A DNA stretch of 64,000 nucleotides from an uncultured Caulobacterales bacterium. GTDB lineage: Bacteria; Pseudomonadota; Alphaproteobacteria; Caulobacterales; Maricaulaceae. Positions 43,046 to 49,669 of this stretch are shown here, one piece after another (position 1 is the first letter of the stretch; every line of letters starts with the position of its first letter). The stretch covers positions 40,969 to 104,968 of the forward strand of contig CALLBD010000003.1 of the NCBI GenBank assembly GCA_938001915.1. The letters run 5' to 3'. The position numbers and the translations under genes are program-made. The notes below the pieces were generated by a model. The model had not been told where the DNA came from. It saw only the letters and a program-made list of their open reading frames with translations, and searched no databases.

Positions 43046-45658
43046 ATGAGACCCACAAAGATAATAATTCCCCCGCCCAGAAATTTTGAGACCTATGGGC
43101 CTTCCGAGCTCTTTCGGTTTTTCTTCCAAATTGGTCACTGGACAGAAGACAGTTTTAGCGAGGAGTTTCAAAACTATACTCGCGGGACACTTATTAGCAC
43201 GGTGACAATCAATAAGTGGAAAAATAAGAACGTCATCCCGACGCGTTACTCTGGGCAATTATTCAAAATGATTGAGACCATGTCGGAGCCGCCCATCGGC
43301 AAAGCGTGGATTAAAGCCTTCGAAACGGTTTGGGCCCTTCACGCCGCCGGCCGGTACGCCGATATAGAGTCAACCAGCGAGCGCGCGCCTTCGGACACAG
43401 TATGCAGGCAACATAGAAAGTGGATTCAACACCTCTACACGCAACCTATGGAAGGGCAGAGCTTTTCGACCGCAGATATTTATGTGCCGCTGCAATGTCT
43501 TAACGCATCAGAAGATAGTGGGGAAATTCTTGATGTGGAGGATGCTGCTCAGGCCCGTTCTAAAATGTGGACCTTCATTAGTGGGGGACCTGGATCGGGG
43601 AAATCTATCAGCGCCTTACGTTTGGCAAGATCATTTTGTGAAGGTGATGTTTTCCCAATTTACATCAGAGGCAAGCACGTCTCAGATATTGACATTGATG
43701 TCACGAATAGCACGCAATTTATCTTCGACTCCTTTTCTATCAAATCATTTTTAAAACAGTTTAGGGCCTCTTCCTTTGACAGCGCTTGTTTGATTTTGGA
43801 CGGGCTCGACGAAATAAATCAAATGTCAGGTGGTAGACACAATCGAGTCGCCCAGATTCTATCTAATTTGAAGCTTGAGCAAGCCGCCTGCGCCGCGCAT
43901 GGTAAATCTTTGCAATTCGTTGTATTCGGCCGTGAGCCCCATATTGAATATGCAGCGAGCCTTGTTCAGGATAGTCAGTCTCAGCATTTGACCTTACTAT
44001 CCCTTGATGGCTCACACCCCAGCAAAGAGAAGCTCAATGATTCCAAAACAGGGTCAGATTTACGGCCAATTTGGTGGGAAAAATATCTTGAGGCTACACA
44101 ACGAAATATAGACCCAACTCTACCCGATTTTTTATGTTTAGAATATGATGATTTTTCAAGCTTTGGACTTAACCCCCTCCTTAGCTTTCTGATGTGTCAA
44201 ACGGCATTTGAGCACGCCCAAGATAGCGCGTTCGTAAAATCACCACATGTCAAATTACAACATGAATACATCAACGCCTTCACATATAGATCCAATAAAA
44301 ATGAAATTTACAACTCCATTGTCCAACACATGGCGGGGTCTTTAAGCCATATACTTACGCCCTCTAAGTTCCGCGCGGTCCTTCAACATATTGCGGTATC
44401 AATATGGCAGGCTGGTGACAATTTATCTGTGCCGATTAATCACATATACGACTCCCTTGAAGACGCTGACCAAAAAAGGAGTTTCAAGGCCTTAGGTCTG
44501 GACTCACGCACCCCAACACCACCGGATATTTTTGTCACCTCATTTTATTATCGCGTGACGCCACATGAAAACCAGCCGGAAAATATGAGGGTAGAATTCA
44601 CGGATGAAACATTTTCCGACTATTTAGTGAGTACATTTCTTTTCGATCGGTTTGTCGACTTACTGTCTGCTTTTAAGACAAATGAGAAAACCGAAGAGGC
44701 TTTGAGCGCCTGGGCTAGGGCGTCCAGTTCTGGAGCCCATACACCAAGCCTTGCGGGCTTCTGCCAAAAAGAGGCGATCTTACGCTACGATGACTTCGCG
44801 GACTTGAATTGGGATTTTGCACTAAAGATTATTCAGAGTCACTTATCCCCCCATCATTTTGGGGAAGGCAGCCTTAAGTCTCTCACCCAATTACAACACT
44901 CAAATAGCGTCTTATTTTTTATCTGGTCATGTTTGAATTTGGAGCGATACAAACGGCGCGATACGCATTTTGATATCATCGGAAATACTCAGGATTTCGA
45001 TATAAATACCCTTAGGGTGTTTCAACCCCCTCACTCGGCGTCTCACCAATCGAGCCCTTTCAATAAACACGCCGCAAACCACCACAGCTTTTTATCCTTT
45101 TCGCTATCGGGGCAAAAAGTCTCCGCGGGCGACTTGCGCCAGTTTAACTTCCGCCAGGGGCATATGGAGCATGCAATCTACATAGATACGAACTTTGCTA
45201 TGACCTATTGGAGCCATGTTAAGGTAAGTGACAGTCAATTTAGTCGAGCCACTTTCCAACAAGCCATTATCCATAAATTGCGTGTTTTAAAATCAGACTT
45301 CAAAAATTGCTTATTTCAGGGCTCGCGATTTGAAGGGGCCCTGTTTAACACTTGTCAAATGCGCGACGTTTTCTTTTCTCAATGCCATTTCTCGGAGGTC
45401 GAATTTATGGCCCCTCAATTCGAAAACGTAATTTTCGACCGATGTGTGTTTTCAGATGTTAGTTTTTCTCAGCTTGACGATAGAATCGGTCTTACCGGCG
45501 CGAAGTTTCGATATTGCACATTTCTAGATATGGAAGCTAACATTGAAAAAATCCCTATAGATAATCTGATTGGGACAATTCAGAAAAACCCAGATGGAAC
45601 CACGCCTATTGCCCTGAAAACATCGAAAATTGGGACAGGGTTACAGAAATTTTTATAA
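43046..45658 (+). CDS. NACHT/STAND-like P-loop NTPase with C-terminal pentapeptide-repeat domain
   Basis: Walker A FISGGPGSGKSISALRLA, Walker B ACLILDGLDEIN, FVVFGREP, LNPLLSFLMC; C-terminal FKNCLFQGSRFEGALFNTCQMRDVFFSQCHFSEVEFMAPQFENVIFDRCVFSDVSF. Confidence 0.8.
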   Translation: MRPTKIIIPPPRNFETYGPSELFRFFFQIGHWTEDSFSEEFQNYTRGTLISTVTINKWKNKNVIPTRYSGQLFKMIETMSEPPIGKAWIKAFETVWALHAAGRYADIESTSERAPSDTVCRQHRKWIQHLYTQPMEGQSFSTADIYVPLQCLNASEDSGEILDVEDAAQARSKMWTFISGGPGSGKSISALRLARSFCEGDVFPIYIRGKHVSDIDIDVTNSTQFIFDSFSIKSFLKQFRASSFDSACLILDGLDEINQMSGGRHNRVAQILSNLKLEQAACAAHGKSLQFVVFGREPHIEYAASLVQDSQSQHLTLLSLDGSHPSKEKLNDSKTGSDLRPIWWEKYLEATQRNIDPTLPDFLCLEYDDFSSFGLNPLLSFLMCQTAFEHAQDSAFVKSPHVKLQHEYINAFTYRSNKNEIYNSIVQHMAGSLSHILTPSKFRAVLQHIAVSIWQAGDNLSVPINHIYDSLEDADQKRSFKALGLDSRTPTPPDIFVTSFYYRVTPHENQPENMRVEFTDETFSDYLVSTFLFDRFVDLLSAFKTNEKTEEALSAWARASSSGAHTPSLAGFCQKEAILRYDDFADLNWDFALKIIQSHLSPHHFGEGSLKSLTQLQHSNSVLFFIWSCLNLERYKRRDTHFDIIGNTQDFDINTLRVFQPPHSASHQSSPFNKHAANHHSFLSFSLSGQKVSAGDLRQFNFRQGHMEHAIYIDTNFAMTYWSHVKVSDSQFSRATFQQAIIHKLRVLKSDFKNCLFQGSRFEGALFNTCQMRDVFFSQCHFSEVEFMAPQFENVIFDRCVFSDVSFSQLDDRIGLTGAKFRYCTFLDMEANIEKIPIDNLIGTIQKNPDGTTPIALKTSKIGTGLQKFL

Positions 45659-45746
45659 TATTTTCAGAACCCTAATACGCAAACACATCTATTAGTTTAT
45701 AGTGAGTTAATGGCGTCTTTTCCGCTTCCGCGTGTAAGCGGAGTTC

Positions 45747-45878
45747 ATGAAAACATCCCAGAAACCCAATTTTAAATCAAAATCCCCTTCCTTAAAACGC
45801 CTGATCTTTCATGCGCTATTTGGTAGAAAACGCGTGTCTTTCTGCACGCCTATTGCTCTTGCGTCACGCCGCAAATGA
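45747..45878 (+). CDS. Small basic ORF (43 aa) MKTSQKPNFKSKSPSLKRLIFHALFGRKRVSFCTPIALASRRK, translationally coupled to the PLP gene
   Basis: Manually translated; TGA 45876-45878 overlaps the ATG 45875-45877 of the next gene; below the track's ORF length cutoff. Confidence 0.55.
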   Translation: MKTSQKPNFKSKSPSLKRLIFHALFGRKRVSFCTPIALASRRK

Positions 45879-47116
45879 CCCGCCTTCATTCAAGCCAGAA
45901 GATTAGGCGACGGGATGTTTTTGCGTTTGCCAGATTAGCTATACGCCCGCTTTTAAGCTTGACGGCTATCGCCCTCTTCACACCGAAACGCACGCGGCAA
46001 ATGGCAGACCTTTTTGCGGAACTTTACTCTCGGCTCTGGGATTGTGCCGAGCATTCAATTTCTCACCAAGGGTTTACCTTGCCATCTGCCCTTGGCGATG
46101 ATCCAGTCCACCGAGTCAATGAACACCTTAAACAACTTTATGGAAGTCAATTTGCAAGTCTTTCAATGGGGGGGTCTTCCGGCGCAATGTTAGCTTTATT
46201 GACCGCCGTCCTACCCAAATTAAATCCTAACCGAGAGTTTATCCTTTTCGACGACGCTTGCCACCAAAGCACAATTGGCGGTCTGATATTTGGGCGATGG
46301 AAAGCCATTCGTTTGCCAAGAGAAAATTGTGAGAGCCGCCAAACTATATATCCGGTTAAATTTGAAGCCCTAAAAGCGCGTATTGAAAAATACGGTCCTG
46401 AAAATTTTGCGGCAATAATATTGGTCCTTCCGTCTTACGATGGGTTTCGGTCTCCCTCGGAGGATCAAAGAATTTACCAATATGCGCGGAACTTAGGTAT
46501 TCCTGTGATTGTTGATGGCGCCTGGGATGCATTGAGGTTTCACGGGCCTAAAGCCCAAACCCCGCCACTTTCCTCTATCTGCGACGTTTGGATTACGAGC
46601 CCCCATAAGCGCGGGCTAACCCCTTCAAGTCTTGGCTGCGTTCTCACAGATAATGAGAGCATAATCCGCCTCTGGGATGAGGCTATGGATTTAGGTTTTC
46701 GGTCCTCTAGTGTGTCTTTTGTAGAGATTATGATTGCAGAATATAGGCTGTCGCAAATTCTAGCTGGCCGTTGGAAGAAAAATTTTGACGACGCCGACAG
46801 AGCCGCGAAAATATTGCGCGCCCGTATTAAAGACATTCATCCAGATCTGGAAATTACAACGGCCCCTCAGGTTCAGGCTGAAATCCATGACCCCACACAT
46901 TTATTGATTGGTACACAAAATATTCCAGATCTAGACGCGCGGGCTTGGGCCAATATTCTAGCAAATGATTTTGCGATCGATATCGAAAAAGCGACAAGGT
47001 CCTCTCTGCTACTTCTATGCGGTGACCCTATACATTTGAGGCATATCGACCAGATTATTGAAAGCTTTGGGGCCGCTCTAAAAATAGCTCTAGAGAGAAC
47101 AGCGAAGTACACATGA
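45875..47116 (+). CDS. PLP-dependent fold-type I enzyme, Orn/Lys/Arg decarboxylase/aminotransferase-like
   Basis: FDDACHQSTIGGL, IPVIVDGAWDALRFHG, SICDVWITSPHKRGLTPSSLGCVL (PLP Lys in SPHKR, cf. STHK of the OrnDC family). Confidence 0.8.
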   Translation: MTRLHSSQKIRRRDVFAFARLAIRPLLSLTAIALFTPKRTRQMADLFAELYSRLWDCAEHSISHQGFTLPSALGDDPVHRVNEHLKQLYGSQFASLSMGGSSGAMLALLTAVLPKLNPNREFILFDDACHQSTIGGLIFGRWKAIRLPRENCESRQTIYPVKFEALKARIEKYGPENFAAIILVLPSYDGFRSPSEDQRIYQYARNLGIPVIVDGAWDALRFHGPKAQTPPLSSICDVWITSPHKRGLTPSSLGCVLTDNESIIRLWDEAMDLGFRSSSVSFVEIMIAEYRLSQILAGRWKKNFDDADRAAKILRARIKDIHPDLEITTAPQVQAEIHDPTHLLIGTQNIPDLDARAWANILANDFAIDIEKATRSSLLLLCGDPIHLRHIDQIIESFGAALKIALERTAKYT

Positions 47117-48777
47117 CACGCAAAACAGATGAATGCCTGCGGCCCTGGGACGCCTTTATCGCCCCAACTGAACGGATAGATTTAGCAAGAGCCTCTGGCC
47201 GAATTGCAGCCTCAACTATTCGGCAATATCCGCCGGGAATACCAGAAATCATACCAGGCACCCAATATTCTCCAGACGTCATCAAGTCTCTTGAGAGCGC
47301 CCATGCCGCTCAAGCTAAAATTATTGGCATCAACATGGCGGCGGATCGCAAGGTAGATGTTCTTAAAGACTTAGGGCGGCAGGCAGAAAAATTGGATATC
47401 CAAGTCTTTGAGTCTCGAAGTATAGACGGTTCAACATCGGATGAGATAGCCGATTTTTTTAGAACCTCTTTCAGCGCGGCGCCTTATTATCACTTCGCCT
47501 TTCATGAAAGTGAGCCCTTAGACTCTCTGCCCCCCACGCTCGATTTCGAAGCCTATGCGGTCAGCATCGCCCTCACCGACCCAGAAAAGCGAAAAACCTG
47601 CCAAGACGCTTTGCGAAGTGTGGCTTATGAAAAAGCGGTGCATGCCAATGCATCCGCTGATTTAAGTAGCATCATTCTGCCAAAAGGATTTCACCTTTGG
47701 ACCGATAAAGCCCTGTGCCGAAAACATATAAAGGACCGTCTTTCTGATCCCGGATATGTCACCCTTGTTCGGCATAAGGATACTGGAAAACTCTTGGGTT
47801 TGCTGCACTCAAGAATGGGAACGGTCAGAAGAATTTTTCAATCTGAGGAGTGGTCCGATCCCTTACTTTTCAGCACCTATAGTGATGCCAAGAAATTAGC
47901 GGATGCCAAACAGTTTTTCGAAAAAGTCGACTATCATTTTGGCCTAAAGCCAAACGACCCCATAATGACAATTTCGGCACAAGTTCTCGCTCCCGAAATT
48001 CAGGGCGGTGATGTATTTTATCAAATGATTAAACCTATGGCAGAGCTTATCAGTCCGCAGCACGCAGCCCTGCCCTTACTCAGCGAAATTTCTCTTCATG
48101 GCACTGCGCATGTATTGAACACGTCCTTTACGGATCGTATTGTTTTTGGCGTTCTCAAAAACACACACCCCCTGGTGTATTGTTCACAAATGAACCAAGC
48201 ACTTTTCCTTTTCACGAGCGAGAAAAAACATTGGCATCACGCCCTGAGAAAAGCTGCCCGCGAAAACCTAGAGTATCGCAAACAATATTTTATTTCCCAT
48301 CATACCGACAATAAGCATGTAAAAGTGCGGCCTAATGGTCCGCTAGGATTAGCTGTTTTTGCGATTAAGGACATCCCCGCAAAAACGCGTATTGCCGTTT
48401 TTAGAGGAGAAACCTATCGCTCAACCTCTGCTGTCAATTTACCCGAAATTATGCGAGACCACGCCATTCAAGTCGGACCGGAAGAATTTGTTTTTGGGTA
48501 TAAAGGCTTGGCACATTGCCTGTGTCATTCTTGTGACCCCAATTGCGGGATCAGAAATCTCACGGAGATTTTTACCATAAGAGACATTGCCGCAGGGGAG
48601 CAGCTATCATGGGACTACAGATGTTCAGAGAACTCAGACTGGGTTTTGGAAACCTGCCTTTGCGGTAGCGAAAGATGCACGGGTACAGTCAAGAATTTCG
48701 ACAGTCTTCCACGTGAAATAAAAGCAGAGTATCTCGCTAAATCCATGGTTTCCGAATGGATTAGAGAAAATATTTAG
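47113..48777 (+). CDS. SET-domain protein with GNAT-like upstream region
   Basis: C-terminal SET motifs GLAVFAIKDIPAKTRIAVFRGE…HCLCHSCDPNCGIR…IAAGEQLSWDYR plus post-SET CLCGSERCTG; upstream YVTLVRHKDTGKLLGLLHSRMGTVRR resembles GNAT. ATGA overlap with the PLP gene. Confidence 0.78.
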   Translation: MTRKTDECLRPWDAFIAPTERIDLARASGRIAASTIRQYPPGIPEIIPGTQYSPDVIKSLESAHAAQAKIIGINMAADRKVDVLKDLGRQAEKLDIQVFESRSIDGSTSDEIADFFRTSFSAAPYYHFAFHESEPLDSLPPTLDFEAYAVSIALTDPEKRKTCQDALRSVAYEKAVHANASADLSSIILPKGFHLWTDKALCRKHIKDRLSDPGYVTLVRHKDTGKLLGLLHSRMGTVRRIFQSEEWSDPLLFSTYSDAKKLADAKQFFEKVDYHFGLKPNDPIMTISAQVLAPEIQGGDVFYQMIKPMAELISPQHAALPLLSEISLHGTAHVLNTSFTDRIVFGVLKNTHPLVYCSQMNQALFLFTSEKKHWHHALRKAARENLEYRKQYFISHHTDNKHVKVRPNGPLGLAVFAIKDIPAKTRIAVFRGETYRSTSAVNLPEIMRDHAIQVGPEEFVFGYKGLAHCLCHSCDPNCGIRNLTEIFTIRDIAAGEQLSWDYRCSENSDWVLETCLCGSERCTGTVKNFDSLPREIKAEYLAKSMVSEWIRENI

Positions 48778-48778
48778 A

Positions 48779-49669
48779 TCAAGAGGGCATGCCAACCAGT
48801 TCTGCCGTGTGATCTCCTAAGAGGCTCAGAAAACTATAATGTTGGTCTAATAAACGCGTGGGTGTATTGCGCGTTGGGTCAGTTTTCACACCGAGTTTAA
48901 GAATTGTTTTATCGCGGACCATGGCTAAATCCTCTTTTAGCGTGCTAGCTGTGATGCCCAAATCCTTGGCCTGTTGTTCAAAGCTCTGCAAAGGCGAGTT
49001 TATATATTTTCGGAGATTTAGCAGACGGCTCTCGGTTAGCCCTGATAACAAGAAAAACAACTTCTTCAATCTCAACTCATCAAAAACACCCGAACGATAG
49101 AACCACGCCAAAGCAAAGGGGAAGGAGGCTAATTCAATTTTTATATGATCAAATGAAACCCAATTCACATTGTTTTTGTCCCCCATATAGTCGAAGGATA
49201 AAAATGTGCTTTCATGGCCCGGGTTTAGAAACCCAACTGACATCGAGTGATAAATTCCAAATTTCAGACAGTGATTAATGAAAAAAGGAAAGTCTTCTAC
49301 CCGCTCGGCTCGACAAATATGCGTATAATTCAAAGCGCGTCCTGGGTTCGCATAAACCACGGGCGAGAGCGTATCCAAATGGGCATTGTGCATATAGCTG
49401 ATCAAACATTCCTCTGGTAAATTCCAAAGAACAGTTTGAATATCAGGGGCCAGGCCTTTTTCGCTCAGCTTAATCTGACTTGTTGTGCAAAACTCATAGG
49501 TAAAATCTGGAAAAATATCTTCAAATACGCGGTTTTGAAATGCCGAAAACGCCAAATCGCCCTCTTTAGATACAGGCGTGACTTTCGCCATATGGAAAAT
49601 TTCTTCAAGGGAGTCAGATGCCAGAAGCCTCTTTATCGAATTTTTATACTGACGCGAAATCCCAGCCAT
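48779..49669 (-). CDS. LuxR-type regulator (divergent autoinducer-binding-like domain plus HTH)
   Basis: C-terminal LTESRLLNLRKYINSPLQSFEQQAKDLGITASTLKEDLAMVRDKTILKLGVK matches the LuxR HTH spacing; about 170-aa N-terminal domain like the autoinducer-binding fold. Confidence 0.65.
   Translation of the reverse strand: MAGISRQYKNSIKRLLASDSLEEIFHMAKVTPVSKEGDLAFSAFQNRVFEDIFPDFTYEFCTTSQIKLSEKGLAPDIQTVLWNLPEECLISYMHNAHLDTLSPVVYANPGRALNYTHICRAERVEDFPFFINHCLKFGIYHSMSVGFLNPGHESTFLSFDYMGDKNNVNWVSFDHIKIELASFPFALAWFYRSGVFDELRLKKLFFLLSGLTESRLLNLRKYINSPLQSFEQQAKDLGITASTLKEDLAMVRDKTILKLGVKTDPTRNTPTRLLDQHYSFLSLLGDHTAELVGMPS

Follow-up and report, generated by a model that had tools for sequence, protein, structure and literature searches.

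Regulatory leader ORFs have been described for decarboxylases of the OKR type. In Gammaproteobacteria, the short conserved ORF orf34/speFL is located 5´ of speF, where it serves as the sensing leader of this ornithine decarboxylase, and its translation is needed for decarboxylase expression (PMC6386406; PMC8429421). In the bur cluster of Burkholderia, BurB, a bacterial SET enzyme that acts on free methionine, is encoded beside the decarboxylase BurI, and both belong to one small-molecule pathway (PMC7496086, PMC12542666). Compact single-chain OKR-like decarboxylases (Mesorhizobium WP_258600169) and the LuxR-type AHL receptors SdiA, TraR and QscR provide two further points of comparison.

Here we describe a locus in a 64,000-nt stretch of DNA from an uncultured Caulobacterales bacterium (the window) that resembles these systems in part. 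As in speFL-speF, a short conserved ORF is located 5´ of an OKR-type decarboxylase gene. However, speF starts hundreds of nucleotides past its leader, whereas the ORF in the window overlaps the decarboxylase start by 4 nt, and the decarboxylase here is split and linked to GNAT-like and SET domains. As in the bur cluster, a SET enzyme is encoded beside a decarboxylase, but an OKR-GNAT-SET fusion and an overlapping peptide are not described in that cluster, and the block in the window has no transaminase or dehydrogenase. Each part is of a known kind; for their combination, for the split and for a peptide coupled by overlap, there appears to be no earlier description. The first-pass annotation stated that no system with this gene order was known to it, and the open-access literature gave no matching system, which is weak evidence of absence.

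The operon and its micropeptide

Three ORFs on the forward strand form the operon. The first encodes a 43-aa peptide (45747..45878), the second a 413-aa PLP fold-type I protein that corresponds to an OKR catalytic domain without its C-terminal domain (45875..47116), and the third a 554-aa fusion protein (47113..48777). These positions and the ATGA overlap at both junctions, which the first-pass annotation had reported, were confirmed on the sequence. The peptide stop overlaps the PLP start in 8/8 loci of the genus. The junction between the PLP gene and the SET gene is overlapping or nearly abutting in all loci, with ATGA in some of them.

The first-pass annotation made its proposal depend on conservation of the small ORF beside other PLP-SET pairs. 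All seven other same-genus genomes with such a pair carry this ORF, and it overlaps the PLP start in the same way, so that it is conserved as a protein sequence in each of the eight loci. These loci belong to Litorimonas/Hellea (named records: Litorimonas cladophorae and a Hellea sp. MAG), and because the eight carrier genomes are mutually related, the conservation counts do not represent independent events. The peptide comprises 37–41 aa in the relatives. In the alignment of the eight loci, the N-terminus is variable and the end is conserved as SLFxKPRxSFCTPVKIASxxK; besides the start Met, the invariant residues are I20, L24, F25, R29, C33, T34, P35, S40 and K43. Of the basic residues, only R29 and K43 never change, so the K/R-richness noted by the first-pass annotation is not what is conserved. 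In each of the last 29 codons, the third position varies among the loci (29/29 columns; pS = 0.76, pN = 0.28), and this codon-position pattern is lost in the two other reading frames of the region. Over the whole peptide, pN is 0.34, close to the values for the PLP protein (0.31) and the SET protein (0.30). A chance ORF is ruled out by the codon-position pattern together with the conservation in 8/8 loci. A peptide profile searched against 137 genomes of the family matched only eight places at E < 1e-17, with the next match at 6e-4, and gave no convincing distant copy. The peptide family is in neither Pfam nor NCBIfam. At the level of sequence, the operon is headed by a real, conserved peptide.

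The translation signals differ between the two overlapping genes. The mean predicted anti-Shine-Dalgarno pairing is -5.9 kcal/mol for the peptide and -0.9 kcal/mol for the PLP gene, compared with -2.5 kcal/mol at random positions, and the PLP start has no Shine-Dalgarno sequence in 6/8 loci. The good Shine-Dalgarno sequence of the peptide and the near absence of one at the overlapping PLP start suggest that translation of the PLP gene probably depends on translation of the peptide. The ORF has the sequence features of a leader or arrest peptide: it is short, has a good ribosome-binding site, is located directly 5´ of the PLP gene and overlaps it, and is conserved near its C-terminus. In contrast to speFL-speF, no conserved RNA structure was found, as the region around the peptide end has no conserved pairs. 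Attenuation by a hairpin switch is therefore unsupported, and an RNA-structure attenuator was rejected as a candidate.

A 24-bp element upstream of the peptide (45690..45713, forward strand) is conserved in the alignment of the eight loci, approximately as GTTT-N7-GTTNATGG. A matrix derived from this element finds one strong site per locus, with self scores of 22.6–29.3 and next-best scores of at most 16.3. It may function as a promoter, or as an operator that contains 11-bp direct repeats.

The split decarboxylase and the fused GNAT-like and SET domains

Pfam OKR_DC_1 (PF01276) is detected in 7/8 PLP homologues, with a best value of 1.1e-7 and with the window copy below threshold. OKR_DC_1_C is not on the PLP chain; it is on the next gene in 8/8 homologues, where it occupies aa 19–69 of the window protein. 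When the first 95 aa of the fusion are appended to the PLP protein, the joined sequence aligns over its whole length with single-chain OKR-type proteins encoded on a Mesorhizobium plasmid and in genome G018, which belongs to another genus. The domains, their order and the active-site motifs are shared with these compact decarboxylases, whereas the window locus splits them over two genes and fuses the C-terminal domain to GNAT-like and SET domains. The PLP motifs G100-S-S-G, H130, D214-x-A-W and S-P-H-K245 are kept, and K245, D214 and H130 are invariant in the genus and aligned with the single-chain relatives. By analogy with known OKR enzymes, we take GSSG to bind the phosphate, K245 to be the PLP lysine, D214 to be the pyridine-nitrogen aspartate and H130 to stack on the ring. 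The PLP gene and the N-terminus of the SET protein are thus predicted to form a split OKR decarboxylase.

The Mesorhizobium plasmid protein (L161:5650-7191) is annotated as hypothetical and is encoded close to lysine 2,3-aminomutase and ATP-grasp genes; this locus may represent a further amine pathway that has not been described. The matches on Mesorhizobium and Variovorax plasmids were set aside as counterparts of the window locus, their gene contexts being different.

The remainder of the fusion comprises a GNAT-like domain (~aa 105–385) and a SET domain with post-SET cysteines (~aa 400–528). Pfam detects SET (PF00856) in 8/8 fusion homologues and gives no match for GNAT in them. AlphaFold modelled the fusion with low confidence (pTM 0.39). 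A Foldseek search with the middle domain of this model returned almost exclusively GNATs (best E 3.1e-3 at prob 0.99), with insect arylalkylamine/polyamine and agmatine N-acetyltransferases ranking first. The PLP, GNAT-like and SET assignments of the first-pass annotation hold on these grounds, that of the GNAT-like domain tentatively, through a low-confidence model. The domain boundaries of the fusion are supported by two other genera, in which GNAT and SET are encoded by separate, adjacent genes. Outside the family, no relative of the GNAT fusion was found in 347 genomes of the order, and the other matches to the fusion across the class span SET alone or the OKR C-terminal domain alone.

In the SET domain, the motifs HSCxPNC and WDY and the post-SET cysteines are present and invariant. 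Within 48304-48774, the Asn of the canonical NHSC is replaced by Cys (CHSC) in 8/8 genus members, and Asn is found in the separate SET genes of loci L053 and L054. SET enzymes classically methylate lysine, and few of those in bacteria are known to have small-molecule roles. MLL-type histone methyltransferases (2e-13) score slightly better against the SET profile than BurB does (1.1e-11). As histone-type enzymes and BurB are both matched, the substrate is not readable from the profile.

Neighbouring genes and distribution of the block

A convergent gene (48779..49669, reverse strand) follows the fusion. Its first Foldseek matches are SdiA, TraR, QscR and RhlR (best E 0.019, prob 0.91, from a model with pTM 0.51). 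Pfam Autoind_bind is detected in 2/8 homologues at a best E of 0.025, below Pfam thresholds; a sequence profile search with the gene gave no LuxR chain, and profile comparison with true LuxR proteins is weak, with the HTH in register. The gene is possibly a distant LuxR-type regulator with autoinducer-binding and HTH domains, as judged from a low-confidence model. Unlike AHL-receptor systems, the window block has no recognised LuxI. Within the family, the gene is present in nine of 137 genomes, and all nine carry GNAT and SET.

On the other side, 5´ of the peptide, a STAND/NACHT-like ATPase with C-terminal pentapeptide repeats is encoded on the forward strand (43046..45658; Pfam pentapeptide 1e-12; NACHT weak, 0.006). 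Its N-terminus is HTH-like by eye. Within the genus, this gene is restricted to the eight genomes that carry the locus. In genome G016, its homologue (L013:6525-8795) matches in two pieces separated by a gap of ~96 query residues, possibly an internal deletion.

The surroundings are the same in the seven other genus genomes: TetR, mrp, HEAT-like, NACHT/pentapeptide, peptide, PLP, fusion and the convergent LuxR-like gene, with one contig (L014) stopping short of mrp. A response regulator and the genes downstream of it are also kept in 6/7 stretches. In genome G009, HEAT adjoins the response regulator and the block genes between them are all missing. All carriers fall in one clade, in which the block occupies a single site, and G009 is their sister in the mrp tree (support 83/82), so that the block was either gained once or lost in G009. 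A mobile or phage origin was rejected: no PLP relative was found in viral contigs and no LuxR-like match on plasmids, and the carriers are a clade with a single site. A known defence system was also rejected, as the window genes have no PADLOC match.

Two loci outside the genus bear on which gene the peptide accompanies. Genome G123, from another genus, has PLP, OKR_C-GNAT and SET genes (locus L054), and the 510 bases remaining on its contig contain no LuxR-like gene. A divergent 72-aa ORF, preceded by a Shine-Dalgarno-like GGAG, overlaps its PLP start. This ORF contains RRIQACTP, in which the spacing from R to CTP is that of R29 and CTP in the genus (R-x-x-x-CTP); residue shuffling gives a chance of 1.75e-4 for this motif. 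A different NACHT protein (L054:3606-6824; Pfam NACHT 2e-11), encoded divergently, adjoins the PLP-GNAT-SET genes, and Fic-like and integrase-like ORFs were seen by eye on the same contig. G018 keeps the GNAT, SET and LuxR-like genes (locus L053) without an adjacent PLP gene; the YPPG motif of its OKR C-domain is lost, and no such peptide was seen upstream of the GNAT/SET locus. With one locus against nine, this is an indication that the peptide goes with the PLP gene and not with GNAT and SET.

Possible roles of the peptide

The explanation that we favour, although tentatively, is an amine-tailoring operon that would decarboxylate, acylate and methylate, with the peptide as a cis-acting leader that gates the decarboxylase. 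The two-chain OKR-type decarboxylase, composed of the PLP protein and the C-terminal domain heading the fusion, would decarboxylate an amino acid. The GNAT domain, located on the polypeptide that carries the OKR C-domain, would acylate the amine, and the SET domain with SAM would methylate the amino acid, the amine or the product, which is perhaps sensed by the convergent LuxR-like protein. We infer these activities, their order and the substrate; the low-confidence models behind the GNAT and LuxR-like assignments (pTM 0.39 and 0.51), the weak sequence matches of the LuxR-like gene and the slightly better match of SET to histone-type enzymes than to BurB count against this explanation. The micropeptide would act in cis as the ribosome entry point of the operon. 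Since the PLP gene has no ribosome-binding site of its own and starts on the peptide stop, only ribosomes that have completed the peptide would go on to synthesize the PLP protein. Depending on a metabolite, the ~28 conserved residues at the end of the peptide may slow the ribosome or trigger its release, and thereby set the decarboxylase dose; ~28 residues is approximately the content of the exit tunnel at termination.

A leader role would account for the overlap, for the missing Shine-Dalgarno sequence, for the association with the PLP gene and for conservation of the C-terminal ~28 residues. On the other hand, plain translational coupling needs no conserved residues, and the distance from CTP to the stop varies (one residue more in L017 and six more in L054), which is unexpected under strict arrest at termination. 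The segment FCTPVKI is similar to the first residues of the arrest sequence of SecM, FSTPVWISQAQGIRAGP (PMC10192921), although the peptide lacks the GIRAGP end; this likeness was noticed post hoc, is suggestive only and counts little.

The first rival explanation, which we consider unlikely but worth weighing, is a RiPP-like system, in which the peptide is a precursor, the GNAT-SET protein, with participation of the PLP protein, acylates and/or lysine-methylates its conserved C-terminal part (C33, S40, K43), and the LuxR-like protein senses the product. The conservation of the peptide is comparable to that of the enzymes, Cys, Ser and Lys residues near its C-terminus are invariant, lysine is the classic SET target, the gene order runs from peptide to enzymes, and a substrate would tolerate the length changes after CTP. 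However, the block contains no recognised protease, transporter or known peptide-recognition domain, and a conserved C-terminus with a variable N-terminus is the reverse of the usual conserved leader and variable core. The absence of the peptide from G018 despite its GNAT, SET and LuxR-like genes also makes a substrate of SET or GNAT less probable. In addition, the identifiable enzyme relatives, namely OKR decarboxylases, polyamine/agmatine N-acetyltransferases (by fold) and BurB, use free small molecules. Together with the G018 locus and the mostly unconserved basic residues, this makes the peptide fit better as a regulator, the second option of the first-pass annotation, than as a modified substrate.

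Somewhat less probable is a role as a small protein partner, either a subunit or an inhibitor, kept in fixed proportion to the split decarboxylase by translational coupling. The peptide follows the PLP gene and not GNAT/SET, its conserved segment is amphipathic-looking, the overlap would yield proportionate synthesis, and the division of the OKR domains between two chains, one of them a fusion, points to an unusual assembly. This role would not specifically explain conservation up to the last codons, and we know of no peptide partner for the single-chain decarboxylase relatives, which speaks against it.

A more far-reaching proposal, to which we give a low probability, combines modification with sensing: the split decarboxylase-GNAT-SET assembly would acylate and/or lysine-methylate a genus-specific micropeptide, for which the LuxR-like protein would be the receptor. 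This would be a new signalling module, in which a ribosomal peptide signal is sensed by a protein family known for acyl-homoserine lactones. Least probable is a cassette for defence or conflict that genomes carry whole or not at all, with the NACHT/pentapeptide protein as sensor and the enzymes as effector: within the genus, the cluster is flanked by a NACHT gene, and one of another type, in divergent orientation, lies beside it in G123, whose contig has the Fic-like and integrase-like ORFs, and the whole unit is missing in G009, but the window genes have no PADLOC match, the block is at one site in a clade rather than scattered, and no NACHT gene lies beside the G018 locus.

If the peptide is a leader of the decarboxylase, the locus would be a further, separately assembled example of an OKR-type decarboxylase gated by a peptide ORF. 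This example would come from marine Alphaproteobacteria, and the gating would rely on direct overlap of start and stop codons instead of a long structured leader. Whether or not the peptide is a leader, the locus adds a new peptide family outside Pfam and NCBIfam and a predicted split OKR decarboxylase whose C-terminal domain carries acyltransferase-like and SET methyltransferase domains. It offers a testable route to an acylated, methylated amine that the LuxR-like protein may sense.
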